Shown here piece by piece: positions 42,034 to 61,412 of a DNA stretch of 64,000 nt. The notes beneath the pieces are model-generated. The model was given only the letters and a program-made list of their open reading frames with translations. It was not told where the DNA came from and ran no database searches. The position numbers and the translations under genes were made by a program. Origin of the DNA: Methylobacter tundripaludum SV96 (GTDB taxonomy: Bacteria; Pseudomonadota; Gammaproteobacteria; Methylococcales; Methylomonadaceae); the NCBI RefSeq assembly GCF_000190755.2, contig NZ_JH109152.1:496001-560000 (forward strand). The letters run 5' to 3'. Within the stretch, counting starts at the first letter, position 1. Every line of letters starts with the position of its first letter.

Positions 42034-42049
42034 CACTGAAAAAGTTTAA

Positions 42050-42125
42050 TCCCCTGTAGCTCAGTCGGTAGAGCGGATGACTGTTAATCATTAGGTCGGC
42101 GGTTCGAGCCCGTCCGGGGGAGCCA
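42050..42125 (+). tRNA. tRNA-Asn (GTT)
   Basis: 76 nt with encoded CCA. The acceptor TCCCCTG/CGGGGGA includes one T-G pair; anticodon loop CTGTTAA with GTT; T-loop GTTCGAGCC. Cotranscribed with tRNA-Arg (16-base gap). Confidence 0.97.
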
Positions 42126-43263: not shown

Positions 43264-43293
43264 TGATGTGTCAACACTTTTCCGGACACAAAG

Positions 43294-44106: not shown

Positions 44107-44128
44107 CGATTTAACCGAAAATTCGCTC

Positions 44129-44571: not shown

Positions 44572-45722
44572 GTCCCATTCAAATGACATGGTTTAGCATG
44601 ATTTTACCGGCGCTGGCACTGAATTATTTTGGTCAGGGTGCGCTGATTCTACGAGAGCCCGTCGCTGTCCTGAATCCCTTCTATTTGTTAGCACCCGAGT
44701 GGGCAATGTACCCAATGATAGGACTAGCGACCGCTGCTACCGTCATTGCTTCACAAGCCGTTATTTCCGGTGCGTTTTCTATCACCAGCCAAGCCATGCA
44801 GATGGACTATATTCCACCTATGCAACGGGTGCATACCTCCACCCAGGCGATGGGACAAATCTATGTGCCAGCTATGAACCGCATGTTATTATTGCTGGTG
44901 ATCTGTACGGTACTGGGCTTCGGCTCTTCCGGCAATCTGGCGGCGGCTTATGGTCTGGCAGTGACCGGCACCATGATGATTACAACGTTATTGGCTCTGG
45001 TAGTCGCTCTGGATAGCTGGCAGTGGTCACCGCTTTGGACCGGTGTACTCGTTGCTTCATTCCTGATAGTTGATGGTGCTTTCTTAGGCGCGAATCTTCT
45101 TAAAATTCCTCAAGGTGGATGGTTTCCACTGGTAGTGGGTGCGACTCTGTTTTTCATGATGTCCACCTGGCGACGCGGACGGCAGGTACTGGCCTATCAT
45201 CTGCAAAATGCAGCCATATCGCTGACCACGTTTATTACCAATCTGACTTTGTTTCCGCCGATGGCAAGAGTCCACGGAACGGCTGTTTACATGAGCGCAC
45301 GCAATCTCAGAATGCCCCATGCCTTGCAGGTCAATTTCGAGCATAATCAGGTATTGCATGAACGGATTGTATTGCTAACCATATCTACTGCAGATATTCC
45401 CACTATCCCCGACTATGAACGAATCGATATTGATCAAATGGATCAGGGTTTTTACTGCGTCACCGCGCGTTATGGTTTTATGGAAACGCCCAATGTGCCG
45501 CAGATACTTAGTTTGTGTAAATTAAAAGGTTTAGACATTGACCAGCACAGTGCGTCTTTTTTCATTGGTAGAGAAACGCTAATACCCTCTAATAAACCGG
45601 ATCTGAACCCCTTGCAGGAAAAAATTTTCCTGATTATGTTCAGAAATGCCTCATCACCCATCCAGTTTTTTAAAGTTCCGCCGGAACGAGTGGTTGAATT
45701 GGGCGTACAGTTTGAAATCTAG
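44572..45722 (+). pseudogene. kup: Kup potassium transporter, 3' part, split by IS3-type element
   Basis: From the IS junction it reads RPIQMTWFSMILPALALNYF, then the remaining helices and a C-terminal cytoplasmic domain (HERIVLLTISTADIPTIPDY, SFFIGRETLIPSNKPDLNPL). Intact to the normal stop. An internal ATG at 44583 could start a fragment, but a working transporter is unlikely. Confidence 0.9.
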
Positions 45723-47366: not shown

Positions 47367-47531
47367 TTAAATATCGTCCTTAAGGTCACCAAAGCCCGCT
47401 TTGACTTTAGCAACTTTTTTTTCGACATTGCCTTTCAGCTCCATCTCATCGTCATTCAGTATCTTGCCGGTGACTTCCTTAACTTTACCTTTGGCTTCTT
47501 CGGCTCTGCCTTTTACTTGATCTTTGTTCAT
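47367..47531 (-). CDS. CsbD family stress protein
   Basis: 54 residues: MNKDQVKGRAEEAKGKVKEV then TGKILNDDEMELKGNVEKKV and a KAGFGDLKDDI end. This is the complete CsbD/YjbJ-type helical protein, cytosolic, induced by general stress in other bacteria; biochemical role unknown. Its upstream region is homologous to that of the CsbD gene at 56752 over about 125 bp, including the 20-bp palindromic motif. Confidence 0.88.
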   Translation of the reverse strand: MNKDQVKGRAEEAKGKVKEVTGKILNDDEMELKGNVEKKVAKVKAGFGDLKDDI

Positions 47532-47639
47532 GAGTTTCTCCTGATAATTATTTAGTCATGACACACATAGCTATGAGCAAAGCGTGGGATAAAGTTCCCT
47601 AACGCCCACTTGAAATATTACAGATAAAACCGAAGGTCG

Positions 47640-47659
47640 TCGGTACGGTAGCGAACAAA
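47640..47659 (-). promoter_or_regulatory. Stress-motif site, upstream of csbD-like 47367
   Basis: Read on the minus strand: TTTGTTCGCTACCGTACCGA, matching TCTGTNCGNTANCGNACAGA at all but two fixed positions. It is about 110 bp before the start codon; GTTTTATCTGT follows 10 bases later and is shared with the 57035 site. Confidence 0.65.
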
Positions 47660-47857
47660 AAGGTATTGGGACTGCAAGATAATCTTGAAATATCTGAGCT
47701 AACCGAAGTGTAATCCTGCATTCTATTCAGGTGAACGGCCGCTTTCGAGGGGACAGGCTACTGTTGAAGTAGTCATGGTGCATCAGCATTAAGTAATGGC
47801 ACTTATATTCTAATTGTAAATTCACAGCATAAAATACACTCTAATTTCTAAGGAGGA

Positions 47858-47932
47858 ATGGCCGCTAAGTTCAATTGCAAGAAGAACAACTTAGTGGTTA
47901 AAGCTTAGATTCAGCAACGAATCTGAGCTTTT
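47858..47932 (+). promoter_or_regulatory. Possible leader peptide and terminator-type hairpin
   Basis: A 16-codon frame (47858-47908, MAAKFNCKKNNLVVKA) follows AAGGAGGA. Its end overlaps a 10-bp stem GCTTAGATTC-AGCAAC-GAATCTGAGC (47903-47928, one G-T pair) with TTTT after it. This resembles a small attenuator, but the ribosome site is too close to the ATG for efficient initiation and the next gene starts 440 bp away. Confidence 0.35.
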
Positions 47933-48374
47933 GCTCTGGAAGAAGACCAAATTTTCAGATAACTTTACATCAAACAAAGAATAATTTATGTTGGATATTA
48001 TTAGAATATCGCTAGCGTCATACTGCAAAGCTTCCCGTCAAGCAAAGTCTCCTTCAGTAACACCTAGGTCGGCAACGTCAGCCGCAAAGCCATTGCTAGG
48101 ATATTATTACCAATCTCCCGGAATTATCAAGATCAGTCAAAATACTCTACGTTAAGAGACAGGAGTCGAGTAGTCCGCAGAAGCGATAGTGTAAGCTTGA
48201 TTGCATTTTGTCGGCGTGAGTCAATTTTATATGCAGAATTTGCCAGTTACTTGGATGCATTTAGGGCGTCGGATTGTTAATGCGTTGTTCTGAAAACCAC
48301 AGATAAACCTCATCAGACATGATGCAACTATCGAATAGACCTTACTTAAATAGCAAGATGGGGAGTTCAATAAT
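47933..48374. other. Intergenic stretch upstream of the ThDP decarboxylase
   Basis: Contains a 56-codon frame (47988-48158, MLDIIRISLASYCKASRQAK) that matches nothing known to me and has no good ribosome site. Otherwise no feature. Confidence 0.35.
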
Positions 48375-50042
48375 ATGAAAAGTTCAGAAATCACGGTTGC
48401 TGATTACCTGATAACACGGCTCAAAGAGATTGGGGTGGATCACCTCTTTGGCGTGCCGGGAGATTTTGTCCTGGGCTTCTTCAACCAAGTACTGAAGAGC
48501 GACCTAAAGTATGTCGGCACCTGCAATGAACTCAACGCGGCCTATGCTGCCGACGGCTACGCTCGTATTCGGGGTGTTGGTGCATTTTCTTCAACCTATG
48601 GCGTCGGAGAATTAAGTGCTATCAACGGCGTGGCGGGCGCATTCGCCGAGAGAGTGCCGATGGTGGTGATCACCGGCTCGCCGTCGACGATTAATTTCCG
48701 CACCCGACCGCTATTGCATCACACCTTGGGCGATTATCAGATTCCCTTGAGGATATACGAAAAAATTACTGCCGCCTCAACCGAGCTGGTTTCGGCTGAA
48801 ACGGCGCCGGCCGAGATCGACCGAGTGTTATCGGTGTGCCTATCTCATCAGCAACCGGTTTACATTAGCATCCCATCGGACGTGGTAATGATGTCGTGTC
48901 AGCGCCCTCAGGCTTTTCTGTTCCCACCAGCCCTAGGTAGTGATCCGGATGCGCTTGGAGAGGCGATCACCGAAGCGCTGGAAATGCTGGATAAGGCACA
49001 GAAACCGATTGTGATCGGCGATGTGGAATTGATACGCTTCAAGCTGCAACAGGATTTCGCCGGCTTTCTCGACAAAACCGGTTTCCCGTATGTGACCATG
49101 ATGTTGGGCAAGAGCGTCCTGTCAGAGCAGCATCCGCAATTCATTGGTCTGTTTGAGGGAGAACGAAGTCGCGAGTATGTTCGAAATCGAGTCGAGTCGG
49201 CTGATTGCATTCTACAACTTGGGGCCGTGCTAACCGATTTTAACACCGGAGGCTTCACAACCAACCTCGACGACGCGAAGACGATCAGCGCCAACATCCG
49301 TTCCGTGAGGATCAAACATCATTATTACGAGAACGTGTCTCTACATGACTTTATCCTTGGGCTGACCGAAAAGCTTACCCGACGCGATCCCGCAACTCTG
49401 GATATCCAATGCGCTGCTGATGGTTGCGTGCACCGACGTGCGGAGCTGTACCAGCCTGATGTGCCGAAACTGCTGACCATCAAGCGTTTCTTCGACCGCA
49501 TGAGTCATTTTATAGAAGACGATGCAATAGTTATTGCTGAAACAGGCGTATCCCTGTTCAGTGCCGCCGAAATGCTCATGCCGGAAGGAGTGACCTTCAT
49601 AGGCCAGACCTTTTACGGATCAATCGGCTATACGATCGGAGCAACCCTGGGTGCGGGCATGGCAGCGCAGGATAGGCAGGTCGTGCTGTTTGTGGGAGAC
49701 GGGTCTTTTCAAGTAACTGGCCAGGACCTGTCGACGATGATCCGCAACCATCTCAAGCCTGTCATCTTTCTGATCAACAATGACGGATATACCATAGAGC
49801 GGGTAATCAGCGATCACCCGTACAATGATCTCCAACCCTGGAAATATCACAAACTGGTGGAGGTGTTCGGAGGTGGGTTAGGTCTTGATGTTCGTACGGA
49901 AGGCGAGCTTGAAGAGGCGCTGACTAAAGCTGCCACAGCGGACGACCTCGTATTTATCGAAATTCACACCGGACGACTGGATTGTCCCGAGTCGCTACGC
50001 AGTGCAGGTCAGTCTATGGCAAAAACAAATCAGCTTGAGTAG
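48375..50042 (+). CDS. ThDP-dependent 2-oxo acid decarboxylase (pyruvate/indolepyruvate decarboxylase family)
   Basis: 555 residues. N-terminal Pyr domain with the catalytic glutamate in CNELNAAYAADGYARIRG (E52) and the paired histidines of the decarboxylase group in RPLLHHTLGD. The C-terminal ThDP motif is GDGSFQVTGQDLS ... FLINNDGYTIE. The HH pair marks PDC/IPDC rather than acetolactate synthase. It likely turns pyruvate or an aryl-pyruvate into the aldehyde and CO2. GGGAG precedes the ATG. Single gene. Confidence 0.9.
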   Translation: MKSSEITVADYLITRLKEIGVDHLFGVPGDFVLGFFNQVLKSDLKYVGTCNELNAAYAADGYARIRGVGAFSSTYGVGELSAINGVAGAFAERVPMVVITGSPSTINFRTRPLLHHTLGDYQIPLRIYEKITAASTELVSAETAPAEIDRVLSVCLSHQQPVYISIPSDVVMMSCQRPQAFLFPPALGSDPDALGEAITEALEMLDKAQKPIVIGDVELIRFKLQQDFAGFLDKTGFPYVTMMLGKSVLSEQHPQFIGLFEGERSREYVRNRVESADCILQLGAVLTDFNTGGFTTNLDDAKTISANIRSVRIKHHYYENVSLHDFILGLTEKLTRRDPATLDIQCAADGCVHRRAELYQPDVPKLLTIKRFFDRMSHFIEDDAIVIAETGVSLFSAAEMLMPEGVTFIGQTFYGSIGYTIGATLGAGMAAQDRQVVLFVGDGSFQVTGQDLSTMIRNHLKPVIFLINNDGYTIERVISDHPYNDLQPWKYHKLVEVFGGGLGLDVRTEGELEEALTKAATADDLVFIEIHTGRLDCPESLRSAGQSMAKTNQLE

Positions 50043-50399
50043 TGCGAAAACTGACTCATTAACTTTAAGGGAATCTCTAATACTTGATTTTTTCATGATA
50101 TTTTCGAATATAAGTCTTTGAAACTAATAAATACTAGTTTTTTCAGAATTGAATTAAATTAATAGAGGTTCCCTTTATATCACTCGAGCTCGATATGATC
50201 CTCCGCCATCAAATATCAGAACTTACGCGTTAGTTACGCACTTTTATGATCAATCGGCGAACCTCGGACGCGGTTGTGTTCATACCGGAAGAGGGACTAT
50301 ATACGGATACAGAGGGATATAAGCTCAGTGGTGTCGACTGGATACCCTCCGCACCCGTTTGACCGTATAGAAGATTCGATCCTCTATTACTGCTTCTTT
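50043..50399. other. Intergenic stretch
   Basis: AT-rich region between the converging decarboxylase and cytochrome genes; no clear terminator stem or repeat recognised. Confidence 0.4.
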
Positions 50400-51806
50400 C
50401 TAAAGCTGTCGCATGAATGCGACGAGATCTTTCTTCTCAGGCTCAGTCAACTTGATGTCGAGAATCAGGTTGAAGAACTCTACCGTATCTTCCAACGTTA
50501 GCAACCTGTCGTCGTGGAGGTAAGGTGGCGAGTCTTTGATTCCGCGCAGGGGGAAGGTCTTGATTGGACCATCGGCGCTAGCCATACGCCCATTGATCAT
50601 CTGTGGCTTGTAGAAGCGTTCCACCTTCATATTATGCATAAGATTATCAGTATAGTAGGGCGCCGCGTGGCAGCTCGCGCAATTGGCTTTGCCGAAGAAA
50701 AGTGCTTGCCCGCTCATCTCCGACTCAGTAGCCATTTTCGGATTCAACTTACCGTCAATGCCGAGTTTGGGAGCCGGTGGAAAATCCAGCAGTTCCTGAA
50801 ACTCTGCCATGAAGTGCACCTGACTGCCGCGATCAAGGATATTGACGCCCTTCTTCGTCGCGATGACCGGATCACCGTCGAAATACGCGGCGCGTTGCTC
50901 GAACTCGGTAAAGTCCTCCACACTCTTCAAAGCACGCTGAGAGCCGAACAAGCGCTGGATGTTCACGCCGCGCAACGACGGCGTGTCAATGCGATGCCGA
51001 AACTCCTGAGGACGGGTATCTCCCGCGAGGTGGGTCGCAGCGTTTGTATGTCCATTGGCGTGGCAGTCGAAACAGGCAACCCCTCGACTCGGACGTTCCG
51101 AGCGGCGATCCTCGGTTTGGTTGAACTGCTGTTGTGAGAAGGGGGTCAACAACATCCTCAGACCCTCTATCTGCTTGGGATTTAGTATCCCATTGAACAG
51201 CTCGTAATAGTTGTCGATAGTGACGAGCTTACCTTGTGAGACATCTCCGAGATCAGGCCGTGTGGTCAGGTAGATGGGAGCTGGGAACTCGGGCAAAAAA
51301 TGGTTCGGAAGATCGAAATCCAAATCAAAACGAACGAGATCCCGCCCTTCTTGCTTCTTGATTTCTTCAATGAGAAACTTGGGAAAGGTCATGCCGCCTT
51401 CCGGGTGGTTCGGATGGGGTAGTGGGAAGAAACCTGCCGGGAACAGGCCTTTCTCGCGAATCTCTTCGGGGCTGGCCGCCGCAAGTTTGTCCCAGCTTGT
51501 ATCTTTGGACAGCTTCACACGGACGCCTTCCTGAACGGGCTTTCCGCTAGACATTGTCACGCCATTAGCAGGGCGGTCACTCAGGTCGTATCGCGCATTG
51601 AGCAGATCGATCTGACGTTTCATGATCTCTGGCTTAGCAGCCTTCATGCGTGCCATCGTCTTTGCGAAGTCCTCATTGATAACAGTGGGGGCGTAGCTCG
51701 ATTTTTTTGTTGCTGATTCCTGGGCTTTACCTATGCCGCTGACTGTGAGCGCTGTCGCGAATATCCCGAACAGCACCCAACGGTTTCTTGGAGTTGTGTG
51801 TCTCAT
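50400..51806 (-). CDS. Di-heme cytochrome c (peroxidase/MauG-related)
   Basis: 468 residues with a signal peptide (about 1-28, ending GIGKAQ). Two heme sites, ACFDCHANGH (about 246-250) and NCASCHAAP (about 373), and a C-terminal peroxidase-like block TFPLRGIKDSPPYLHDDRLL. It is a periplasmic electron carrier or peroxidase. It is distinct from the IS-interrupted di-heme gene at 35745; the shared layout is only general. Confidence 0.85.
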   Translation of the reverse strand: MRHTTPRNRWVLFGIFATALTVSGIGKAQESATKKSSYAPTVINEDFAKTMARMKAAKPEIMKRQIDLLNARYDLSDRPANGVTMSSGKPVQEGVRVKLSKDTSWDKLAAASPEEIREKGLFPAGFFPLPHPNHPEGGMTFPKFLIEEIKKQEGRDLVRFDLDFDLPNHFLPEFPAPIYLTTRPDLGDVSQGKLVTIDNYYELFNGILNPKQIEGLRMLLTPFSQQQFNQTEDRRSERPSRGVACFDCHANGHTNAATHLAGDTRPQEFRHRIDTPSLRGVNIQRLFGSQRALKSVEDFTEFEQRAAYFDGDPVIATKKGVNILDRGSQVHFMAEFQELLDFPPAPKLGIDGKLNPKMATESEMSGQALFFGKANCASCHAAPYYTDNLMHNMKVERFYKPQMINGRMASADGPIKTFPLRGIKDSPPYLHDDRLLTLEDTVEFFNLILDIKLTEPEKKDLVAFMRQL

Positions 51807-51992
51807 ATCTTGTCCTCCGAACCTTTAAGTTTGGTGGAATGGCTCAAGACCCAGAGCCCAGCCGTCGCACATTCAAATTCGCAACGGCTAAGTTGAAGCA
51901 AACTGCTGGCGCTCAGCACTTTCACCTAAGCGTCTCGACAGAAACAAAAAGCCACTCTAACGATTGTCTAATTATCGCCTGAAGTTATTCGC

Positions 51993-52232
51993 TTAAGATT
52001 TCGGCGAAACTGTCGACCACTCCTGCATCGCTTGATCGCCTGGACGATCTACTTTAACCTTGCCGCTCTCGATTGAGCTTACCCAGGTTAGCGGAATGTA
52101 ATGGTGTTGACCTGCCTTATCTTTCTTCAGCTTGATGGTATCCGTCCCCTCCATATGATCGACAGTAGCAAATTGTCCGTCTTGGGAGCAAACAACGGGC
52201 ATATCAGGTTTGATTTGGTCGGGATTAATCAT
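51993..52232 (-). CDS. DUF2171 domain protein
   Basis: 79 residues: MINPDQIKPDMPVVCSQDGQ, FATVDHMEGTDTIKLKKDKA, HHYIPLTWVSSIE. This is the DUF2171 small beta-barrel pattern, often next to stress genes; function unknown. A TGGTTTTTCTCC region gives GGAGAAAAACC before the ATG. Confidence 0.8.
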   Translation of the reverse strand: MINPDQIKPDMPVVCSQDGQFATVDHMEGTDTIKLKKDKAGQHHYIPLTWVSSIESGKVKVDRPGDQAMQEWSTVSPKS

Positions 52233-52390
52233 GGTTTTTCTCCTGTTGGCTCAGTTTGAGCCGGTTTTATGAAAATTCTTAATCGGTACTCAGACGAGGA
52301 TTGAAAACACTACCCTTTTCGGATTTTAACGGGATTACTCGATTTTTTCTTAACGAGTGAGTTCCCTGCATACCTCATTAAATCTCCTTG

Positions 52391-52413
52391 TCTGTGTTTT
52401 AAGGTTACACAGA
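52391..52413. promoter_or_regulatory. Inverted repeat TCTGTGT-N9-ACACAGA
   Basis: Perfect 7-bp arms, 23 bp in all. The half-site TCTGTGT recalls TCTGTNC of the stress motif found 14 bp further on, but the spacing is different. Confidence 0.45.
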
Positions 52414-52426
52414 TAATTAAAATCGG

Positions 52427-52446
52427 TCTGTGCGACATCGCACATA
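52427..52446. promoter_or_regulatory. Stress-motif site between DUF2171 and EF-hand genes
   Basis: TCTGTGCGACATCGCACATA: the arms TGTGCGA/TCGCACA are perfect. Match to TCTGTNCGNTANCGNACAGA at all fixed positions but two. About 195 bp before the DUF2171 start. Confidence 0.6.
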
Positions 52447-52563
52447 GACAATGTCCTTGTGGCTGTCAAAAAACAAAAACTTTAATAATCGCGTAATTTT
52501 TGCATAACACTGCTTAATTTTGCGTCCGGAAAAGTGTTGACACACTACATTATCCAGTCGCTT

Positions 52564-52583
52564 TATGTGTGCCACCGTACCGA
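52564..52583. promoter_or_regulatory. Second stress-motif site between DUF2171 and EF-hand genes
   Basis: TATGTGTGCCACCGTACCGA, a weaker match (four fixed positions differ). Distance to both flanking genes is over 300 bp. Confidence 0.45.
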
Positions 52584-52904
52584 CTTAACTCAATTGTCCA
52601 ATTTATAATTATTCTGGCTCAATGAATTATTTTTTGTGTCAGTGCTTGAATTGATATGAACATGGCGACAAAGTCATTTTCCACATTCTCGAAGATTGAA
52701 GTAATTAAGCAGACATGAAAGAAGCATCAAATGGAAGACGCCGGCTATATCGCAGAGTGATATTATTAATTCATCATTAGCCGCCCAGACGCTTTGGGCC
52801 AGTAATAACGCGCATCCAAAGCAGGCAAGTAACACGATATTCTTGTTGAAACCATTTTCAAGATAAAACCGGATCTACTTAAACTCTAACCCTGTGAGAC
52901 CATT
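52584..52904. other. Non-coding stretch upstream of the EF-hand gene
   Basis: Most of this is AT-rich and featureless. On the minus strand at about 52735-52850 an open frame reads KNIVLLACFGCALLLAQSVW then AANDELIISLCDIAG, which looks like a signal peptide plus the start of a small periplasmic protein, but it has no start codon and soon stops; perhaps a decayed gene. Confidence 0.35.
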
Positions 52905-53279
52905 ATGAAAACTAGAAAAACTATTCGCGAAATATCCCATAACCCCAACCAGTTTTTTAAAATTATTAAGGTAGCTGTTGTTATGAGTATCGGCCTTGGC
53001 TCTGTTACCCAGTCTGTATGGGCTGAAAATCAAACTCCAGACGTTCAAAATGCACAAGCTGATCCAGCCAAAAAACCTGGAGATGGCCAGGGAAAATTAC
53101 CCACATTTGCCCAGGCTGATGTCAATGGCGATCACTACGTTACTAAAAGTGAATTGCAAAATTTCCCGTATTTACTGCAAGTATTCGACAAGGTGGATGC
53201 AGGTCATGACGGTAAGTTGGAACAACATGAATACCAAAATCTGGAAATGGAAACCAAACGGGAAGGGGAAGTCAAGTAA
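52905..53279 (+). CDS. Exported EF-hand calcium-binding protein
   Basis: 124 residues. Signal-type N-terminus, long (KVAVVMSIGLGSVTQSVWA to about residue 40). Two EF-hand loops: DVNGDHYVTKSE (72-83) and DAGHDGKLEQHE (98-109), each with acidic residues at positions 1 and 12. Probably a periplasmic calcium-binding protein. Codons are AT-rich for this window. Confidence 0.8.
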   Translation: MKTRKTIREISHNPNQFFKIIKVAVVMSIGLGSVTQSVWAENQTPDVQNAQADPAKKPGDGQGKLPTFAQADVNGDHYVTKSELQNFPYLLQVFDKVDAGHDGKLEQHEYQNLEMETKREGEVK

Positions 53280-53483
53280 ATGGGGTATAGGCCCAAACCG
53301 TTGAGGCATTTGAGGTTCGGCGCCGACATCACCGTGTGGAGGCGCTAATGCGAGAACTGCCTGTCTTAATATGTAATGTGTCGATATCCAAAATAAAAAA
53401 ATGCAGCATAAAGCCGAAACAGTCCATCAGATAACGGAGAGTCTCGATCTCAAGAGTCCAGTTGACTAGGTTCTGTTGACGTT
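53280..53483. other. Non-coding stretch before the IS5 remnant
   Basis: No intact gene; may include unrecognisable parts of the decayed IS element that follows. Confidence 0.35.
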
Positions 53484-53621
53484 TCATCTGAGCCATAAAA
53501 GTACCGAGGAAAATGACAGCATCACCATGCAATTAATAGCCTTTTTCTCGTATCGAGTGGCAATTCTACGGTAGTGCTTGAGCTTGCCGAATGTAAAACG
53601 GCGTTGAATTTTTTCCACAAA
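53484..53621 (-). pseudogene. IS5-family transposase, C-terminal remnant
   Basis: Reads VEKIQRRFTFGKLKHYRRIA then TRYEKKAINCMVMLSFSSVL, the conserved end of IS5-type DDE transposases (YRRIATRYEKKA). Nothing of the catalytic part or ends is left. Confidence 0.75.
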
Positions 53622-53885
53622 AAGCGCCTTTTCCCAGCCATATAAGACTGTAGATATCATTAAAAACAATAATATAGTAATTGTTTCTGGTAATATTTAG
53701 GCGCTATTTACTGGAAAAGCTGGCACATTTTCCACGTTTTTTACCATCCAGGCGTAATGGTTTTATTACGTCTGGGTTTCTAAAGGTGGCGCCATTGAAA
53801 TTTATTCATTTGTTCTAGTCCAGTTGGCAAACTCTACTGTAGCTTCGAAAAATTGAGGCTGTGCAGTCACTTAAATAATACCAAC

Positions 53886-54302
53886 TCAGTTTTTCTCCAG
53901 TCGGATTTTAAGCGCGTATTTTTCACGGTCGATTTCTCCCCGGGTACGGATACCAAGCCGGCGTAATAGAGGTAAGGGAGGGCACCATCCTTGTAATCCA
54001 TGCTGCAACAAAAACGGCAAAACAATGCCGGGAAGGAATAACCATTTTCGATTTTTGGTTAAACCAAGAATCAGGCCGGTTAGGGCTAACGTGGAGGCAT
54101 TGACCTCAAGCACTCGCTCTATATCCCATTCCTTATCCAGCATTTGAATACGCTCAAGAATTTCTGCCCTGCTTTTACCCTTATAACGGTGAATATTTAT
54201 ATCCGTTTGATGATCTATTTCTTCATTCACAAGGGAAGCGGTGGAGCTACGAACGCGATCCAGGCTTGATCTTGTTGAATCTTCAGCATTAAATATAGAC
54301 AT
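53886..54302 (-). CDS. DUF2892 (YgaP transmembrane-like) membrane protein
   Basis: 138 residues from the ATG at 54302: the sequence GGAGGT lies four bases before it, which favours this start over the in-frame ATG 12 bases upstream. N-terminal soluble part with IHRYKGKSRAEILERIQMLD, then KEWDIERVLEVNASTLALTG and a helix pair around NRKWLFLPGIVLPFLLQHGL, and the signature GWCPPLPLLRRLGIRTRGEI. Inner membrane; role unknown but usually in stress clusters. Confidence 0.85.
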   Translation of the reverse strand: MSIFNAEDSTRSSLDRVRSSTASLVNEEIDHQTDINIHRYKGKSRAEILERIQMLDKEWDIERVLEVNASTLALTGLILGLTKNRKWLFLPGIVLPFLLQHGLQGWCPPLPLLRRLGIRTRGEIDREKYALKIRLEKN

Positions 54303-54314
54303 AGGTACCTCCAA

Positions 54315-54644
54315 ATTAAAAAAAATTTCGCCGCATAATCACAGCAATATCTATTCTTTACTTGTGTTTCACCATTTCTTTCTACCCAGCTGCTGCGTTA
54401 AGACAATTAACGTCTTATCAATTCCGGATTACGTACAATTTTGGCCGAACAACTGGCGAACTCCTCAAGTAGCCATCATGCCGGCATGAATTCGTATAAC
54501 TGACGATCCTTGCTAATCAGGTTTAATAGTTAATAAAGTGAGTTGGATTTTTATTTAAAACCCGGTAACGCAATAAATAAAGTCAGCGCGAATCACTTTA
54601 GGTCCACGCTGACATCACTTAAACAGTAGGCTAGGCTGGAAAGC
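54315..54644. other. Intergenic stretch
   Basis: No gene or full copy of the 20-bp motif; only the half-site-like GGCCGAACA near 54450. Confidence 0.4.
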
Positions 54645-55088
54645 CTATTCAGATGCCGTGTCCAAAAGCTGATCCAAAGTGCGTATATGCGCTTGTTGAG
54701 CAGACAGCAACTTTGTTTCAATCAAAGAGCGAACATCTGAGGAAAGCTCAGTATCCTCCAGCGCTTCCTCATATTCCTCTGCACCACTTTTTTCTCCTGC
54801 CTGTAAAGCCTTTAGTACCGCTTTTTTACCCAACATATTAGCGCCTCCCTGGACTATTTTCGCCCAAGTGCCCCAAGCTCCTGAGTCCTCACAGGGAGTT
54901 CCTCCCAATCGATTGATTAGTGCTTGTAAACTGGAAACGGCATCTTTATGAGCCTCATAAATTGGCTTTAAATCCTCCGATTCGCCCACGCCGGCATCTT
55001 CCTTAAGTTTATCCAACGCCTGCTGATATGTTTCCGTTGCTGATAATTCATCTTTCAACAATTTGTTGAGTATTTCAATGTTATGCAT
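54645..55088 (-). CDS. DUF2383 (PA2169-type) four-helix protein
   Basis: 147 residues: MHNIEILNKLLKDELSATET, a LINRLGGTPCEDSGAWGTWA loop and KALQAGEKSGAEEYEEALED. The pattern is of ferritin-like four-helix proteins of the DUF2383 family. Soluble; role unknown; seen with stress and membrane-stress genes. Confidence 0.85.
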   Translation of the reverse strand: MHNIEILNKLLKDELSATETYQQALDKLKEDAGVGESEDLKPIYEAHKDAVSSLQALINRLGGTPCEDSGAWGTWAKIVQGGANMLGKKAVLKALQAGEKSGAEEYEEALEDTELSSDVRSLIETKLLSAQQAHIRTLDQLLDTASE

Positions 55089-55149
55089 AATAAAACTCCT
55101 CTGTGATTATTTCTTGATTACGTGTAATAGCATCATCAAGCTTAAGTAT

Positions 55150-55665
55150 TTATACTGACTCTTCCCCAGTCGATGAGATATCCTCTGCGTGAGCCTGCTC
55201 AAAGATTTTTTTCGCCTTATCACACTCTTCGCTGCTTTCCGTATGTACTGAAATCAAGGCACTTCCTCCCTTGATTTTTCCTTCGTAGCGTTTGGCTTCA
55301 TACTCAGGAATACCCAGCCCAATTAAGCCTCCAGTCAAACCTCCAGTGGCAGCGCCTACTGCCGCACCACTCAATGCCCCCATAATGGGCCCAGCAGCAA
55401 TTAACGGACCGACGCCTGGAATAGCCAGAGCGCCGATCCCGGCTAACAACCCGAGCGCAGCGCCAGTGCCTAAACCCACGGTCCCACCGATAGCGGCGCC
55501 TTCCGGCGCTTTGGTGTGCTTCTCATGAGCAAAATCCTTGGTCGTGGATTTGTCGGGAAACAGCACAGATATATCATTAATTGAAAAACCTGCTGTCTTC
55601 AGGTTATTAACAATGATCTCTGTTTGTTCGAGATTTTGAGCGATACAAAAAACTGCTTTAGTCAT
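55150..55665 (-). CDS. DUF1269-like protein with glycine-zipper region
   Basis: 171 residues: an N-terminal alpha/beta domain (KAVFCIAQNLEQTEIIVNNL, KTAGFSINDISVLFPD) as in general-stress 17M-like proteins, a long Gly/Ala-rich hydrophobic zipper (GTGAALGLLAGIGALAIPGV, GAAVGAATGGLTGGLIGLGI) and a C-terminal GGSALISVHTESSEECDKAK. Likely membrane-associated. In the stress run with DUF2383 and BON genes. Confidence 0.8.
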   Translation of the reverse strand: MTKAVFCIAQNLEQTEIIVNNLKTAGFSINDISVLFPDKSTTKDFAHEKHTKAPEGAAIGGTVGLGTGAALGLLAGIGALAIPGVGPLIAAGPIMGALSGAAVGAATGGLTGGLIGLGIPEYEAKRYEGKIKGGSALISVHTESSEECDKAKKIFEQAHAEDISSTGEESV

Positions 55666-55682
55666 GTCATTCTCCTGGGCCT

Positions 55683-56090
55683 TTAAGGCGCTTTATTTTC
55701 AAGTTGATTATCTACCTGCACTACACCACGCATTTTCTTGGCGATTTCTTGCAGCTTCTTACTTTCAGCTTCACTTGCAACAGGCCCACGCAAAGTCACC
55801 ACGCCATTACGGGTGATGATTTTTGCATTCTGCGCATCGACTGATAGCGATTTATCTCTAACCACGGCTTGACGTATCTTAGCCGTGATTTTGATATCCT
55901 TTTTGGTTTCCTTTTGGTCTTCCGGGGTTAAAGTAGCGTTGTTCTTGTCGCGAACATTACGCTCGGCATTTTCCAATTCCGAGTTAGCTGCCAAATGGAA
56001 TGCGGTATTTTGTTCGGCTCGAACAGGACCGGTCATCATTATTAGGCTGCCCGTTAAAGTGAAAATAACTAGCAATAATCGTGTAGGCAT
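55683..56090 (-). CDS. BON-domain periplasmic protein (OsmY-like)
   Basis: 135 residues from the ATG at 56090 (GGAG six bases upstream; two earlier in-frame ATG are less likely). Signal MPTRLLLVIFTLTGSLIMMT to about PVRA. One BON domain: ITAKIRQAVVRDKSLSVDAQ, NAKIITRNGVVTLRGPV, VVQVDNQLENKAP. BON proteins bind phospholipid and protect the envelope in osmotic stress. A TCTGTTCG half-site lies at about 56143-56150. Confidence 0.88.
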   Translation of the reverse strand: MPTRLLLVIFTLTGSLIMMTGPVRAEQNTAFHLAANSELENAERNVRDKNNATLTPEDQKETKKDIKITAKIRQAVVRDKSLSVDAQNAKIITRNGVVTLRGPVASEAESKKLQEIAKKMRGVVQVDNQLENKAP

Positions 56091-56168
56091 AGTGTTCTCC
56101 TTCATAGTAAGTGTTTCTTTATTAACATAATTGAACGGCATCCATGCCGAACAGAAGTTGATGGTCGT

Positions 56169-56366
56169 TTATTGCGTGGCTTTCAAATGTATGTCGGCTC
56201 CTTCGGCAGATTGCTTCGCAACGTCGACATGCTTTTGCTTGCCGTGATCAATAGCATCATTTATGCACCGCGATGCAGGCATTCAGGTGTTCGATGGCGG
56301 GTTTAGCATGAGCTATCGCGTGTTTGAGCACTTCTGACCTGTGTTTTCCTCCGTCATAAACTCGTT
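56169..56366 (-). pseudogene. SmbP-like small metal-binding protein, frameshifted remnant
   Basis: One frame reads RVYDGGKHRSEVLKHAIAHA then KPAIEHLNACIAVHK and stops; one base on, the next frame reads DAIDHGKQKHVDVAKQSAEG then ADIHLKATQ and stops at 56169. Together they have the HxxxAxxH-type helical repeats of SmbP-like periplasmic metal-binding proteins. The signal peptide and N-terminus are lost: the sequence begins at the end of the CsbD-like gene. A decayed gene. Confidence 0.6.
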
Positions 56367-56651
56367 TTATTTGCCTTGCTGAATATCCTTTTTGGTGTCA
56401 CCGAAGCCCTTTTGCGCTTTGCCGACATTCTTTTGGACATTTCCTTCCACCTCCATCCCTTTGTCGTCCAGTATCTTGCCGGTTTCTTCCTTGGCTTTAC
56501 CTTGGGTTTCATCGACTCGACCTTTTATTTGATCTTTGTTCATGTTCTTGTAGGTCTCCTCTTTGCTTTCCTCGGCATAAGCGCCAAACGAGCAGACGGT
56601 GAAAGCGATAACTGCCGATAAACCAATGAGTTTCATGTGAGTGAGTTTCAT
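56367..56651 (-). CDS. Exported CsbD-like protein
   Basis: 94 residues starting at the second ATG, six bases after AGGAA. The signal peptide (MKLTHMKLIGLSAVIAFTVC then SFGAYAEE) leads to a CsbD domain (MNKDQIKGRVDETQGKAKEE, TGKILDDKGMEVEGNVQKNV, GFGDTKKDIQQGK). CsbD proteins are normally cytosolic, so an exported form is notable. Near-identical signal in the 46910 gene shows a duplication. Confidence 0.88.
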   Translation of the reverse strand: MKLTHMKLIGLSAVIAFTVCSFGAYAEESKEETYKNMNKDQIKGRVDETQGKAKEETGKILDDKGMEVEGNVQKNVGKAQKGFGDTKKDIQQGK

Positions 56652-56751
56652 GTGCATTTCCTGAAAAAAAAGTTATGTGAGAGCATCAAATTGCCGCTGT
56701 GCTTCTGGCCAGTCTTTCTGGGCCCAGCTGCACAGTTCAGCAGTGCTCGTC

Positions 56752-56928
56752 TTATTTGTCTTTCTTAATATCGTCCTTGAGATCACCAAAGCCAGCCCTG
56801 ACTTTACCAACGTTTTTTTGAACATTTCCTTCCAGCTCCATCTCATCGTCGTCCAGTATCTTGCCGGTGACTTCCTTAACTTTACCTTTGGCTTCTTCGA
56901 CTCGGCCTTTTATTTGATCTTTGTTCAT
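56752..56928 (-). CDS. CsbD family stress protein
   Basis: 58 residues: MNKDQIKGRVEEAKGKVKEV, TGKILDDDEMELEGNVQKNV, GKVRAGFGDLKDDIKKDK. Paralogue of the 47367 gene, with its upstream region also duplicated, including the palindromic motif and GTTTTATCTGT. Cytosolic, stress-associated. Confidence 0.9.
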   Translation of the reverse strand: MNKDQIKGRVEEAKGKVKEVTGKILDDDEMELEGNVQKNVGKVRAGFGDLKDDIKKDK

Positions 56929-57034
56929 GAGTGTCTCCTGTAATTATTTAGCCATGCCCAGATAGCCATGACTAAAGCGTGGAATGAAGTTCCCCATCGC
57001 TCATTTTAAAGGGTACAGATAAAACTAAACGCAG
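56929..57034 (-). promoter_or_regulatory. Duplicated csbD leader region
   Basis: This leader (with TTTAGTCATGGCTATCTGGG and AAATAATTACAGGAGA) aligns with 47532-47639 (TTTGCTCATAGCTATGTGTG, AAATAATTATCAGGAGA). The two csbD genes and promoters arose by duplication. Confidence 0.7.
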
Positions 57035-57054
57035 TCGGTACGGTAGCGAACAGA
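57035..57054 (-). promoter_or_regulatory. Stress-motif site, upstream of csbD-like 56752
   Basis: On the minus strand TCTGTTCGCTACCGTACCGA, differing from TCTGTNCGNTANCGNACAGA at one fixed position. About 107 bp before the start codon. Confidence 0.7.
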
Positions 57055-57256
57055 GACGGACTAGGTCTGCTCGACTTTGCTCTCTGACAGGTGGCTAAGA
57101 CCAGGACTCGCTGGACTTGGAGTGGGTTGCTCGTCGGAAGGATTTGCTGTCCCGAAGAGGCGTCTCGCTTGAGTGCGATGAAATTTCGAAGCCGTGGATA
57201 GCTGAAGAGATCGGGTATTCAGCCAGAACAATACGGCAGAGCTAGTAAACTATTTT

Positions 57257-58549
57257 TTACTTCCCCAGCGACCAAAACATCGCGGCTACCGCAATTGCCA
57301 TAACGGCTGTACATAACCAGCCTAACACCTTCAGTCTGAGTGCAATGACGAATTGCCCCATGATATCTGGGCGGACTGCCATCAGCATCATCACCGTCAT
57401 AATAGGCACGGAAATAACTCCGTTGATAACCGCACTCCAGTAGAGCGCTTTGATTGGATTGATGGGCGTAAAACAGAGTCCGACGCCGATAATCGTCGAT
57501 AGGGCGATAATGCCATAGAAGCTTTTTGCCATAAGGGGCTTTAATTCTAAGCTATTGCGCCAATGAAATGCACCGGCCATCGCATAGGCGGCAGAGCCGG
57601 CTAATACTGGAATTGCGAGCAAGCCGGTACCAATGATGCCTGCACTAAACAACCAGAAAGCAAATTCGCCGGCAATCGGACGTAGTGCAGACGCGGCCTG
57701 TGCCGATGTTTGAATCTCAGTCACGCCGTGCAGATTTAGAGTGACGGCTGTCGTCAATATAATAAAAAATGCGACCAGGTTGGAAAATGCCATACCGATA
57801 AAAGTGTCGACCTTAATTCGGCTAAAATTGGCTCTTGCCTGGTCGGGCGCATCCTTCAACGTTTTTGCCTGCGGATTAACTCGCTGCTCCTCAACCTCTT
57901 GTGAAGCCTGCCAGAAGAACAGGTAAGGACTGATGGTGGTTCCGAAGACCGCGACGACAGTGGTGATGTATTTCGGTTTCCATGATAACTGCGGTAACAA
58001 AGTATTGGTCAGTACTTGCGTCCACGGTATGTGCACGACAAATACCGTGGCAACGTAGGCGAGCAATGATAGGGTAAGCCATTTCAGGATGCGCACGTAA
58101 CGGCTATACGGAATAAATAGTTGTAATAACAGCGATAGCCCACCAAAGCCAACGACATACCAGTGGGTGGAGCCGCCAACCATCAATTTCAAGGCATCCG
58201 CCATGGCGGCGACATCCGCAGCGATATTGATCGTATTGGCAACTAACAGCAGTCCGACGATAGCATATAGCAGTCCGGCCGGATAATGTTGGCGTATATT
58301 GGTCGCTAAACCATGTCCACTGACCCGCCCGATTTTGGCGCTGATTACCTGGATGCCAACCATTAGGGGATAAGTCAACAATACGGTCCACAGCATACTG
58401 AAGCCAAACTGAGCGCCAGCCTGCGAATAGGTAGCGATGCCACTGGGATCATCATCGGCGGCGCCGGTAATCAAACCGGGGCCAAGTTTCTTTAACCAGG
58501 ACTCCGGGCGCGTGTCTTTATCCTTTGCTGTTTCCCCTGCATGTGACAT
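57257..58549 (-). CDS. Nramp-related metal transporter (DPSG variant)
   Basis: 430 residues, about eleven membrane helices. The first helix has ITGAADDDPSGIATYSQAGA; classical Nramp proteins have DPGN here, so S36-G37 replace the usual G and metal-binding N. In helix 6 the classical MPH is not present (TTISPYLFFWQASQEVEEQR). This is the pattern of divergent Nramp-related proteins, some of which transport magnesium, so Mn/Fe specificity cannot be assumed. Isolated gene within the stress region. Confidence 0.85.
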   Translation of the reverse strand: MSHAGETAKDKDTRPESWLKKLGPGLITGAADDDPSGIATYSQAGAQFGFSMLWTVLLTYPLMVGIQVISAKIGRVSGHGLATNIRQHYPAGLLYAIVGLLLVANTINIAADVAAMADALKLMVGGSTHWYVVGFGGLSLLLQLFIPYSRYVRILKWLTLSLLAYVATVFVVHIPWTQVLTNTLLPQLSWKPKYITTVVAVFGTTISPYLFFWQASQEVEEQRVNPQAKTLKDAPDQARANFSRIKVDTFIGMAFSNLVAFFIILTTAVTLNLHGVTEIQTSAQAASALRPIAGEFAFWLFSAGIIGTGLLAIPVLAGSAAYAMAGAFHWRNSLELKPLMAKSFYGIIALSTIIGVGLCFTPINPIKALYWSAVINGVISVPIMTVMMLMAVRPDIMGQFVIALRLKVLGWLCTAVMAIAVAAMFWSLGK

Positions 58550-58872
58550 ATGGTTCCTGATTAAGACTGAAAAAACGTTATATTTATTGGCTCCTTTAAG
58601 CCTGTAATGTAATCAATGATTTTAGGTAAGGCTACTGGGAGTATCATAGCCAGACCAATAGCTAGCTCTTCCTGGCTGGTTTCGTAACCGACAATTTCTC
58701 CGCGCTCAAGTTGGGCGATTTGGTCTGCGTCGATACCAAATGCCAGAAAATTTTCTCAATCTTAAGAGCCTCGATGTTCTGTCGCGATGCCTTGTGTGTT
58801 GCCTATGCCCACCGCTTGCGCAGCGACCCTCTCCCACACACAAGGTACAAACAGAACGGTAGTACTTCAGGG
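58550..58872. other. Intergenic stretch with a start-less open frame
   Basis: On the minus strand at about 58563-58742 an open frame reads NFLAFGIDADQIAQLERGEI then VGYETSQEELAIGLAMILPV. It looks protein-like but has stops directly upstream and no start codon; perhaps a gene remnant. Unrecognised. Confidence 0.35.
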
Positions 58873-59031
58873 TTAGATTATTCCCGAAAAGATCAGGAGC
58901 AGTAAGATAATCAGCAACAGCCCGAGTCCGCCGCTGGGTCCATAACCCCATGATCGGCTATGTGGCCAGGCTGGAAAGACACCAATAACCATCAGGATAA
59001 TAATTATGAGTAAGATTGTACCAAGTGGCAT
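58873..59031 (-). CDS. DUF3309 small membrane protein
   Basis: 52 residues: MPLGTILLIIIILMVIGVFP, AWPHSRSWGYGPSGGLG, LLLIILLLLIFSGII. Two hydrophobic segments around the WPHSRSWGYGPSGGLG signature of DUF3309. Inner membrane; function unknown; in other genomes it lies with CsbD and DUF3096 genes. Confidence 0.88.
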   Translation of the reverse strand: MPLGTILLIIIILMVIGVFPAWPHSRSWGYGPSGGLGLLLIILLLLIFSGII

Positions 59032-59112
59032 GACAGTACCCCTCTTAGAGAAAAAACGTTAAATTGAAAACCATTCCAAATCGTCGGGGTCTTGGCCCCG
59101 TCACTGCTTTAC

Positions 59113-59262
59113 TTAAAGGCTATGATGCATTAACCCCAAGATACCCACGACGATCAAATACACGGCCACGAAATAATTTAAAAACCTCGGTACCAGCAAA
59201 ATTAATATACCTATTACAAGTGCCAGTATGGGTTCGATCGCGAAATGCAGATTCATATTCAT
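59113..59262 (-). CDS. DUF3096 small membrane protein
   Basis: 49 residues: MNMNLHFAIEPILALVIGIL, ILLVPRFLNYFVAVYLIVVG, ILGLMHHSL. The LVPRFLNYFVAVYLIVVGILGL block is the DUF3096 pattern. GGAGGATC lies before the ATG. The best copy of the palindromic motif is 51 bp upstream. Confidence 0.85.
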   Translation of the reverse strand: MNMNLHFAIEPILALVIGILILLVPRFLNYFVAVYLIVVGILGLMHHSL

Positions 59263-59312
59263 GGTGATCCTCCTTGAGTGAGCATTTAGTTTAGTGGCAA
59301 GATTGGACTTAG

Positions 59313-59332
59313 TCTGTTCGCTATCGTACAGA
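59313..59332. promoter_or_regulatory. Stress-motif site, upstream of DUF3096 gene
   Basis: TCTGTTCGCTATCGTACAGA, a match to every fixed position of TCTGTNCGNTANCGNACAGA. Each arm TCTGTNCG pairs with CGNACAGA. It is 51 bp before the DUF3096 start codon. Confidence 0.75.
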
Positions 59333-59652
59333 AGGTGGCTGCCGGTAATAGGGATTCCAAGTATTCGTTGTACCGGACGAGTTCATTCGCCTTAGGCATC
59401 ACCGACTGTCATTGAGAGCGGTTAGTTCCAACGTAATCACGGTTTAAAAATAAATATTTGACCGTCGGCTTGGGGGTTAGGCATGATGACATGGACTCCT
59501 CATCACTCCCCCACGGCGTCATAACGCAGGCAACGATTTAAAAGACGGAGAAAAGAGTAGTCCGAAATTCCTTTAGGAATGGTAACTAAATGACCCGTTT
59601 TCCTAGCCCAGTTTCTTCCAAAGGGAGATTGGACGTGCTCGCTTCGTAATTT
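59333..59652. other. Intergenic stretch between the DUF3096 site and the Crp/Fnr gene
   Basis: No coding frame, repeat or further copy of the motif recognised. Confidence 0.4.
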
Positions 59653-60429
59653 TCACGGTAACATACCACTCGCATGCATGATGTTAGTGGGCCACGCCGT
59701 GGAGAGAGTGGAGGGGAGCAGGCGATCGGATTCCGTTTTGACCACGTGGTAGCACTCGCAGACCCGCGCCTCCAGTCCAGGTCGGTCCAGCACCGTGATG
59801 TGGCCTCGTCTGTAAACAATCAATCCAGCTCCCTGCAATTTCCCGGCTGCTTCCGTGACGCCTTCGCGGCGGACTCCGAGCATATTGGCGATCAATTCCT
59901 GAGTTATGGTTAACTCGTTAGAAGGCAGCCGGTCTAGGCTTACCAGCAGCCAACGACAGAGCTGCTGATCCACGGAATGATGTCGATTACAAACAGCTAG
60001 CTGTGCCATCTGGGTAATCAGCGCCTGGGTATAGCGCAGCAATAAACAGTGCAACCCCCCGGAGCGACTTCCCCTAGAACGATCGAATTCCTGCATAAGT
60101 AGATGCGTTCGCAGCCTATAGGCGTAGCCCGCGCTCCGCACGACGGCCCGATCAGGCATGGTTCCTCCGCCCATGAAGATTGAGATACCGATGATGCCAT
60201 CGTTGCCGACTACGGCGATTTCGGCCGATGCGCCATTCTTTGTGACGTAAAGCTTGGACACAATGCAAGTCGTGGGAAAATAGACATAATGTAACTCGTC
60301 ACCGGATTCGTAAAGGATTTTACCGAGTGGCATCTGGACCAATTCCAGATGCGGAGAAATGCGCTCGAATTCCTCTGCGGGCAGGGCGGCGAGAAGATGG
60401 TTTTGCCAAGAGTTAAATGGGTCAGACAT
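59653..60429 (-). CDS. Crp/Fnr family transcriptional regulator
   Basis: 258 residues from the ATG at 60429. A cyclic-nucleotide-binding-type beta-roll (ILYESGDELHYVYFPTTCIV, VGNDGIIGISIFMGGGTMPD) is followed by a winged helix-turn-helix (TITQELIANMLGVRREGVTE then AAGKLQGAGLIVYRRGHITV). The recognition helix reads RREGVTE rather than Crp-like SRETV, so its site may differ from TGTGA. No FNR cysteine cluster. Being the only regulator in the stress island, it is the first candidate for binding TCTGTNCGNTANCGNACAGA (inference). Confidence 0.9.
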   Translation of the reverse strand: MSDPFNSWQNHLLAALPAEEFERISPHLELVQMPLGKILYESGDELHYVYFPTTCIVSKLYVTKNGASAEIAVVGNDGIIGISIFMGGGTMPDRAVVRSAGYAYRLRTHLLMQEFDRSRGSRSGGLHCLLLRYTQALITQMAQLAVCNRHHSVDQQLCRWLLVSLDRLPSNELTITQELIANMLGVRREGVTEAAGKLQGAGLIVYRRGHITVLDRPGLEARVCECYHVVKTESDRLLPSTLSTAWPTNIMHASGMLP

Positions 60430-61022
60430 AAGTAACATCCCTCTGTTAATGCAAGATCGAACAGCTCTAAAAAATCAGTTTGTGTTGTGCAAGTGTCTGT
60501 AAGATATAGGGTTCAACTTCTCCAATCAATAAGTGCTGCTACCTATCAGGTGACTACGCTATTGAGCTGCATGTCTTGTCATACCTGGATGGTAACAATT
60601 AGAAGCAAACCAATGCCATCCTATGTGCATCATGGTAGTAATTTGCCATTGCGTTACATATACTCCACGCGCTCAAGTTTTCGGCTTTCTCTCAAAATAA
60701 CTGGAAGTTCATAGTCATCAAACTTTGCATCTCATTTTTTGAAGCGTGTACCACGTTCATTAATTCGCATCGAATTAACCAAGGCCAACTATTCCATCCG
60801 GATAACTTTCAGGAACTGAGTGATTTTTATGGTATCTACGCTGTACCGGCGTCACCCGTGGAAAACAGTTGGTGGTGGTCATTGCGCAATCAAAAGCCTT
60901 GGCAATGGCAGTTAAGAATCAACGCTCTCAGCGTAGGATTACTGCTCTTTAAGCGTAACGACCTGCATTTGAAACCGGACACTGACCAGTATTCAACTAA
61001 ATTCATACAGAAAAGTCGTATC
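60430..61022. other. Intergenic stretch with a Trp-rich open frame
   Basis: On the plus strand a frame open from about 60645 to 61046 includes FHPDNFQELSDFYGIYAVPA then ENSWWWSLRNQKPWQWQLRI. It has no ATG in its first 70 codons, only a GTG at 60858. I cannot name it; it could be a decayed gene. Confidence 0.35.
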
Positions 61023-61042
61023 TATGTACGCCAGCGCACGGA
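61023..61042. promoter_or_regulatory. Stress-motif site, upstream of the His-rich gene
   Basis: TATGTACGCCAGCGCACGGA, matching the consensus at all but three fixed positions. It is 118 bp before the His-rich gene start, about the same distance as in the two csbD genes. Confidence 0.55.
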
Positions 61043-61160
61043 ATAATTCTTGATAATTTCCTATCATTAACTCGTGAGTCATTCATTGGCTCACCGGCAT
61101 AGGAATTCCATTAGCTCAAGGGCAGAGGGATTCGTTAAATTTTTTTTTCGGGAGAAAAAA

Positions 61161-61412
61161 ATGACACAAGCACAAGCGAAAGACCAAGAAACAACACAAG
61201 AGAAAACTCCACAGCAACATCATCAGAAAGCGGCAGAGCACCACGAACAGGCAGCCAAGCATCACAAGGAAGCCGCCAAGCATTACGAATCCGGTGACGA
61301 CAAAACTGCAGCACAGCACGCCCATATAGCCCATGGATATTCAACCCAAGCCATGGAACAAGAAATGGAAGCCAGCAAGAAATACGCGAAAATGCAAGGT
61401 CTTAGAAAGTAA
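61161..61412 (+). CDS. Small histidine- and alanine-rich helical protein
   Basis: 83 residues from the ATG at 61161 (GGGAG upstream): repeats of the type HHQKAAEHHEQAAKHHKEAA then KHYESGDDKTAAQHAHIAHG. The regularly spaced His pairs could bind metals. Such proteins occur in stress clusters of other proteobacteria, function unknown. Cytosolic as predicted. Confidence 0.8.
   Translation: MTQAQAKDQETTQEKTPQQHHQKAAEHHEQAAKHHKEAAKHYESGDDKTAAQHAHIAHGYSTQAMEQEMEASKKYAKMQGLRK

Follow-up and report, generated by a model that had tools for sequence, protein, structure and literature searches.

We propose that a 20-bp palindrome recurring in a 64,000-nucleotide stretch of Methylobacter tundripaludum SV96 (contig NZ_JH109152.1, positions 496,001 to 560,000; the whole stretch is called the window) is the operator of a class II activator regulon belonging to a Crp/Fnr subfamily with the recognition helix RREG[VI]TE, a reading to which we assign a probability of about 0.86. 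In this model a homodimer of the subfamily would bind TGTNCG-N4-CGNACA centred at -41.5, occupying the place of the -35 element, and would activate transcription in the class II manner from a TAnnnT -10 box. The genes switched on would encode small stress or envelope proteins (CsbD, BON, PRC-barrel, DUF2171 and DUF3096), catalase, hemerythrin, glycogen enzymes and others, and in many bacteria the regulator itself. Computation establishes the sites, their spacing to the -10 box, the genes behind them and their co-occurrence with the subfamily.

Sites, predicted promoters and putative target genes

The genome (4.85 Mb, three contigs) was scanned both with the pattern described in a sequence-only reading of the window and with a refined palindrome, TMKGTNCGNYRNCGNACMKA, using the reversed pattern as control. 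The refined palindrome occurs exactly at 22 sites against 0 for the control and with at most one mismatch at 43 places against 6, and the pattern of the earlier reading, with at most three mismatches, at 58 places against 14, far from the random genome-wide frequency that this reading had named as the outcome that would undo its proposal. That pattern holds 16 fixed positions and not 14, and the centre of the palindrome is YR rather than TA, with A/C and T/G at positions 2 and 3. A matrix made from the sites gives 49 matches of at least 15 bits in 395 kb of DNA around the sites of this genome, where 100 palindrome-keeping permutations of its columns average 1.0 and never exceed 7. These same sites had served to train the matrix, but their position relative to genes played no part in the training, and 45 of the 49 matches lie outside called genes and 4 inside, though 71% of the sequence is called coding by the simple in-house scorer that stood in for a standard gene finder. 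As some sites are copies of each other (C1:568730, 637179 and 647674; also C1:553035 and C2:1524238, where C1 is the contig of the window), the counts within this genome are not independent events.

Many of the sites stand at one fixed distance from a predicted promoter element. Among sites of at least 16 bits that face exactly one gene, a TAnnnT hexamer follows the 20-bp site at a distance of exactly 19 bp in 19 of 25 cases in this genome and in 65 of 165 elsewhere, the 65 being spread over 47 of 86 loci. Other offsets from 10 to 33 bp each collect 0-4 cases here and 0-12 elsewhere, the 12 belonging to offset 20, and on the far side of these sites TAnnnT shows no peak. When all 45 intergenic sites of this genome are taken together, 34 have a -10 box at exactly 19 bp on either side, and 30 have it on the gene-facing side. 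With the -10 hexamer at -12 to -7, a box 19 bp past the site therefore places the site centre at -41.5, where class II activators of the Crp/Fnr family sit. The site centre fits a class II activator promoter, the start sites being those predicted from the -10 boxes.

The first genes behind the sites of this genome include those for CsbD, DUF3096, BON, PRC-barrel, DUF2171, catalase and hemerythrin, as well as two glycogen phosphorylase-kind proteins (one of them scanned), a branching-type amylase, a cation ATPase, a CtaG-like protein, a squalene-hopene cyclase and a Crp/Fnr paralogue, annotations from which we infer a role of the regulon in stress. All nine CsbD (PF05532) matches of the genome, listed independently of the sites, stand behind a site, seven of them directly (one being a sub-cut-off remnant on C2) and two as the next gene after such a csbD. 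Of the ten BON domain matches, three belong to genes immediately behind a site, four stand farther down the same strand from one (a statement of position, the operons being unconfirmed) and three have no listed site (one at C1:1937884 and two in one gene at C1:1613935). Across 134 stretches, each built around the regulator or a site, which makes the enrichment a local test, 367 of 2133 called genes have an upstream site; the Crp/Fnr family (78/172, paralogues included), CsbD (24/39), BON (17/40) and PRC-barrel (8/11) are enriched, the CsbD and PRC groups having been named by eye, and DUF883 (7/27) and DUF3309 (5/18) are not. Of the families that the sequence-only reading had singled out, csbD, BON and Crp/Fnr genes are enriched in these stretches and DUF3309 genes are not.

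The Crp/Fnr subfamily and its proposed operator

The sequence-only reading had put forward as binder the Crp/Fnr-family protein encoded in the window (59653-60429, minus strand). This protein matches PF13545, the Crp-type HTH, at 54.6 bits (cut-off 27) and the cNMP-binding domain PF00027 at 24.7 bits (E 2.4e-05, cut-off 27.5), and its AlphaFold2 model (pLDDT 83.9) finds GlxR and CRP as top Foldseek matches (E about 1e-13), indicating a Crp/Fnr fold. Its helix RREGVTE, which had been called unusual, is instead the commonest helix of a widespread subfamily, of which the genome holds four intact genes (the window copy, C1:588689, C1:607176 and about C1:827223), all with RREGVTE or RREGITE, plus two remnants. 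The remaining two HTH_Crp_2 proteins above cut-off are by sequence one FNR-like and one CRP-like. Co-occurrence, clustering at the orthologous gene of other genera, class II spacing and a difference in specificity in one group argue for the subfamily as binder; because there are four intact paralogues, the window copy is one candidate among them, and on our best reading one or more of the four, not necessarily the window copy, would bind the palindrome.

In this genome a stretch of 106 kb (C1:543640-649376), or about 2.2% of the total, contains 20 of the 43 sites and three of the four intact copies of the regulator. The regulon proposed earlier is supported and extends well beyond the window, which contains 6 of these 20 sites. 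A decayed partial copy of the window cluster seems to be present at C2:1523280-1526289, with a BON gene, a csbD remnant, two sites resembling those at 57035 and 59313 of the window, and a broken Crp/Fnr copy that is 96% identical over residues 1-139.

In a sample of 61 relatives, this genome included, exact sites are found in 29 of 29 genomes with a protein of the RREG[VI]TE subfamily (E at most 1e-20) versus 4 of 32 without one (Fisher 3e-13, kinship ignored). In a sample of 299 genomes of the phylum, an exact site occurs in 16 of 25 genomes with a close protein versus 8 of the 274 others when the cut is E at most 1e-78, a value chosen after the list had been seen, and in 18 of 66 versus 6 of 233 (hand count) at the preset E of at most 1e-20. 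As the reversed control occurs in 29 of those genomes, the signal in the phylum lies in the distribution and not in the total. In the scan of related genomes called for by the sequence-only reading, the motif follows the subfamily. These results, together with the spacing, lead us to infer that a protein of the subfamily binds the palindrome and activates transcription from it.

The same association is seen when the protein is the sole criterion for picking loci. The best 80 of 593 confirmed candidate loci include Methylobacter, Methylomonas, Nitrosomonas, Thiobacillus, Sulfuriferula, Aromatoleum, Cupriavidus and Paraburkholderia, as well as one labelled Rhodospirillaceae and three metagenome-assembled genomes labelled Spirochaetales or Spirochaetaceae. 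They carry 211 site matches of at least 15 bits, in 71 of the 80 loci, where 60 permuted matrices give a mean of 2.3 and a maximum of 11, and 196 of the 211 fall between genes in sequence that is 79% coding. A site of at least 13 bits lies within 450 bp upstream of the matched start in 29 of 46 loci with the helix RREGVTE, which suggests autoregulation of the regulator in many bacteria. A first de novo palindrome run was too strict, returning no seeds in the RREG set and coding-like motifs in the Burkholderiaceae set; the rerun ranks TcTGTgCGcTAgCGcACAgA top in the RREG set, with 62 matches in 15 of 15 loci and 0 in permuted controls, and confirms the shape of the motif and not its frequency, since the 15 loci were hand-picked among loci that already had matches. 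In the Burkholderiaceae set the rerun again gives only coding-like motifs, and the shifted motif of that group emerges only under a loosened matrix. Many of the same loci, L106, L114, L158 and L161 for example, carry a further Crp/Fnr gene, with the helix RRVG[VI]TK and less than 55% identical to the window protein. In L263 and L289, proteins with PAS domains, apparently sensor histidine kinases as judged by eye, are encoded close to the regulator or downstream of sites (9 of 30 in one cluster, p 0.06); they are a possible signalling partner.

The regulator is also carried by 57 plasmid records. In pKLC102 weaker sites of 12-20 bits lie near the regulator and ahead of neighbouring genes, and in an Acidovorax plasmid a 27.7-bit site lies immediately upstream of it; no sites were found in a Methylomagnum stretch. 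On both pKLC102 and the Acidovorax plasmid the regulator and sites adjoin large genes of the glucan-synthesis type.

The recognition helix provides a separate line of evidence. RREGVTE aligns over SREMAGR of the CRP-like protein of this genome, and passages of one paper have Arg180 of E. coli CRP contacting G2 of T1G2T3G4A5 and Arg185 and Glu181 reading the fourth base pair (PMC11253593). In the palindrome G2 is retained, and base 4, which is motif position 6, is open but C is avoided. In one Burkholderiaceae group the helix Glu is replaced by Ser, Pro or Ala, and position 6 was counted with a matrix that ignores positions 1-3 and 6, over sites outside called genes. Its composition is A.23, C.06, G.52, T.19 for the E-type helix (107 loci, 338 sites), A.54, C.27, G.11, T.09 for the S-type (8 loci, 28 sites) and A.65, C.27, G.00, T.08 for the P-type (3 loci, 13 sites), and at a single G-type locus the only site carries G in both halves. 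In the first 80 loci the difference has a chi-square p below 1e-17. Counted by locus over the larger set, G exceeds C at position 6 in 76 of 82 E-type loci versus 1 of 9 of the S, P or A type. In the best tree the 12 S/P/A rows form one group (support 90.8, a grouping that the program marks as neither shown nor rejected), so that the change of specificity counts as a single event at best. Only two pairs represent independent changes of this residue, out of reach of significance, and the variants of the last helix position (A, Q, V, D, T, H or L for E) occupy 1-5 loci each with no judgeable difference. Locus L255, probably a duplicate of L142, is kept in the base-frequency and spacing counts and left out of the enrichment, tree and per-locus counts.

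In 27 orthologues C147, H150, H151, C158, C224 and C226 are invariant, and a redox or metal role for these six residues is possible. The Glu of the cAMP pocket (Gly71-Glu72 in CRP) is replaced, giving Gly-Ile/Val in the three aligned rows of one alignment, and the N-terminal Fe-S cysteine cluster of FNR is absent from the aligned subfamily rows and present in the FNR-like protein of this genome.

Competing explanations and known systems

Several results weigh against the class II model. The nearest site upstream of the window regulator itself lies at least 593 bp from its start, and 15 of the 45 intergenic sites of this genome have no -10 box at 19 bp on the gene-facing side. Co-occurrence is imperfect, in that four relatives have exact sites without the full protein, one of which (G006, 100% complete) retains a C-terminal fragment of it only and the other three of which are 80-90% complete, and in that 9 of the 25 phylum genomes with the close protein lack an exact site and 8 of the 274 without it have one. 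Finally, 6 of the 82 E-type loci do not prefer G over C at position 6, and the difference in specificity, being confined to one tree group, is unreplicated.

Other readings could account for some of these features. The protein may act mainly as a repressor, or both ways, as the 11 of 45 intergenic sites that have no -10 box at 19 bp on either side could indicate; this is unlikely, given that a fixed centre at -41.5 is the usual place of an activator in the Crp/Fnr family. A regulator of another family that is co-inherited with the RREG genes and counts the Crp/Fnr proteins among its targets would explain why sites often lie upstream of a Crp/Fnr gene, and the RREG subfamily is the one regulator family for which co-occurrence was examined. 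The 16-bp frame, the -41.5 centre and the helix-linked change at the base pair of CRP Glu181 nevertheless point to a Crp/Fnr protein, and we hold such a stranger to be improbable. That the ordinary CRP-like or FNR-like protein of the genome, which has one of each, is the binder would agree with the 16-bp dimer frame and with the TGT start as in the CRP site, but the fifth base is C and not the A of TGTGA, and the TTGAT of the FNR consensus is absent. HTH_Crp_2 proteins as a class, moreover, occur in 14 of 14 control genomes, yet 28 of the 32 relatives lacking the RREG protein have no motif; ordinary CRP or FNR was rejected on this ground, the motif tracking the RREG subfamily and not Crp/Fnr proteins generally, and is a very improbable binder.

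Chance or a dispersed repeat element is the reading we credit least, and is extremely improbable. A repeat would agree with the duplication of several sites in this genome, with the presence of 20 of 43 within one 106-kb stretch and with the apparent decayed part-copy of the window cluster on C2. However, the flanks differ while the distance to the -10 box is fixed, and the motif reappears next to the orthologous gene of other genera; the recurrence and the fixed spacing contradict a repeat element, and chance is rejected by the shuffles and the reversed-control counts.

The proposed class II regulon has relatives among known systems. The E. coli CRP site is TGTGA-N6-TCACA, and CRP acts at class II promoters. 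The fold, the 16-bp dimer frame, the TGT with the helix Arg-Glu kept and the class II-like spacing are alike; unlike the CRP site, the palindrome has C for A at base 5, G at base 6 and a YR centre, and the subfamily has Glu at the R185 position and Gly-Ile/Val for the Gly-Glu of the pocket (three rows). FNR and Anr, whose site is TTGAT-N4-ATCAA, share the family and activation from -41.5, but the subfamily has no N-terminal cysteine cluster, its site differs and the genome encodes a separate FNR-like protein. NtcA of cyanobacteria is the best NCBIfam match and among the closest solved sequences, yet scores only 20.6 bits for the window protein and 20.6 to 31.7 over three paralogues against a cut-off of 244.95. 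The RpoS and PhyR-EcfG general stress responses govern broad sets of small stress and envelope genes through sigma factors, and differ on this general description from the DNA-bound activator proposed here. The low-oxygen-activated (lxa) locus of Burkholderia cenocepacia is, similarly, a stress-gene cluster, and no such palindrome was found in passages of the literature citing the lxa work. DdrI of Deinococcus and TTHB099 of Thermus are CRP-family proteins that, in the passages available of two sources, bind DNA without cAMP, the TTHB099 site beginning with TGT and ending with ACA as here; the inner site bases differ, the DdrI helix is RETVTK and the tests made here give no orthology (PMC11253593, PMC7662524).

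No description of the motif or regulon was found in the open-licence literature, a search that could miss one in a subscription journal. What is new is a Crp/Fnr class II regulon with an operator of its own, Crp/Fnr class II regulation as such being already known. A wider proposal, for which we put the odds at about even, is that the subfamily governs a general stress regulon, often with autoregulation, across many beta- and gammaproteobacteria and a few genomes with other labels, in the role that sigma factors (RpoS, EcfG) play elsewhere, that it travels on plasmids such as pKLC102, and that one helix residue has re-tuned its operators in the Burkholderiaceae group. If true, the model provides predictions of regulator, operator and start site for very common and poorly understood small stress genes (csbD, BON, DUF2171 and DUF3096) of methanotrophs, nitrifiers and a wide range of further bacteria. 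It would also offer a natural experiment in which a single residue tests how Crp/Fnr proteins select their DNA.

The window sites and their surroundings

All six palindrome copies noticed by eye in the window are present, and the genes said to lie behind them (two csbD, the DUF2171/EF-hand pair, DUF3096 and a His-rich gene) agree with Pfam or, for the His-rich gene, with the gene call. The pattern of the sequence-only reading with at most three mismatches recovers five of the six, where 100 dinucleotide shuffles give a mean of 0.17, a largest count of 2 and none with five; the sixth, at 52564-52583, has four mismatches to that pattern and one to the refined palindrome. Five of the six have their -10 box at 19 bp, and the copy at 52564 has it at 20 bp. 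The distances to the start codon put at 107-118 bp in three genes measure 106, 108 and 118 bp.

On the minus strand, the predicted operator at 47640-47659 (one mismatch to the refined palindrome) is followed after 19 bp by a predicted -10 box TAATAT (47615-47620) and, with the start 108 bp away, by the CsbD-like gene 47367-47531 (PF05532). Two sites belong to the DUF2171/EF-hand pair. On the minus strand the exact palindrome at 52427-52446, with the predicted box TAACCT 19 bp past it (52402-52407), is the putative operator of the DUF2171 gene (51993-52232, PF09939; start 194 bp away), and on the plus strand the site at 52564-52583, with the predicted box TATAAT at 52604-52609, one bp beyond the usual distance, faces as candidate operator the EF-hand gene (52905-53279, PF13405 and PF13202; start 321 bp away). 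The exact copy at 57035-57054 (minus) would serve the second csbD (56752-56928, PF05532; start 106 bp away) from a predicted box TACCCT 19 bp past it (57010-57015), and presumably by co-transcription the second gene behind it, 56367-56651 (minus), which encodes a further CsbD-domain protein (PF05532 at C1:552379-552534).

The copy at 59313-59332 (minus), described earlier as complete, is indeed an exact match and, with the predicted box TAAACT 19 bp past it (59288-59293), the likely operator of the DUF3096 gene (59113-59262, minus, PF11295; start 50 bp away). On the plus strand, the site at 61023-61042 (one mismatch to the refined palindrome) and the predicted box TATCAT 19 bp past it (61062-61067) precede, as predicted operator and promoter, the gene for the small His-rich protein (61161-61412; start 118 bp away), whose longer frame 61074-61412 matched no Pfam family.

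A search of the 98 kb that follow the window gave no tRNA gene and hence no sign of an island border on that side. Within the window, genes for tRNA-Arg and tRNA-Asn (41957-42125) lie directly ahead of a split kup-like potassium transporter gene (named by eye), whose halves at 42525-43406 and 44583-45722 on the plus strand appear to be interrupted by an IS3-type transposase pair (43294-44512, minus strand).

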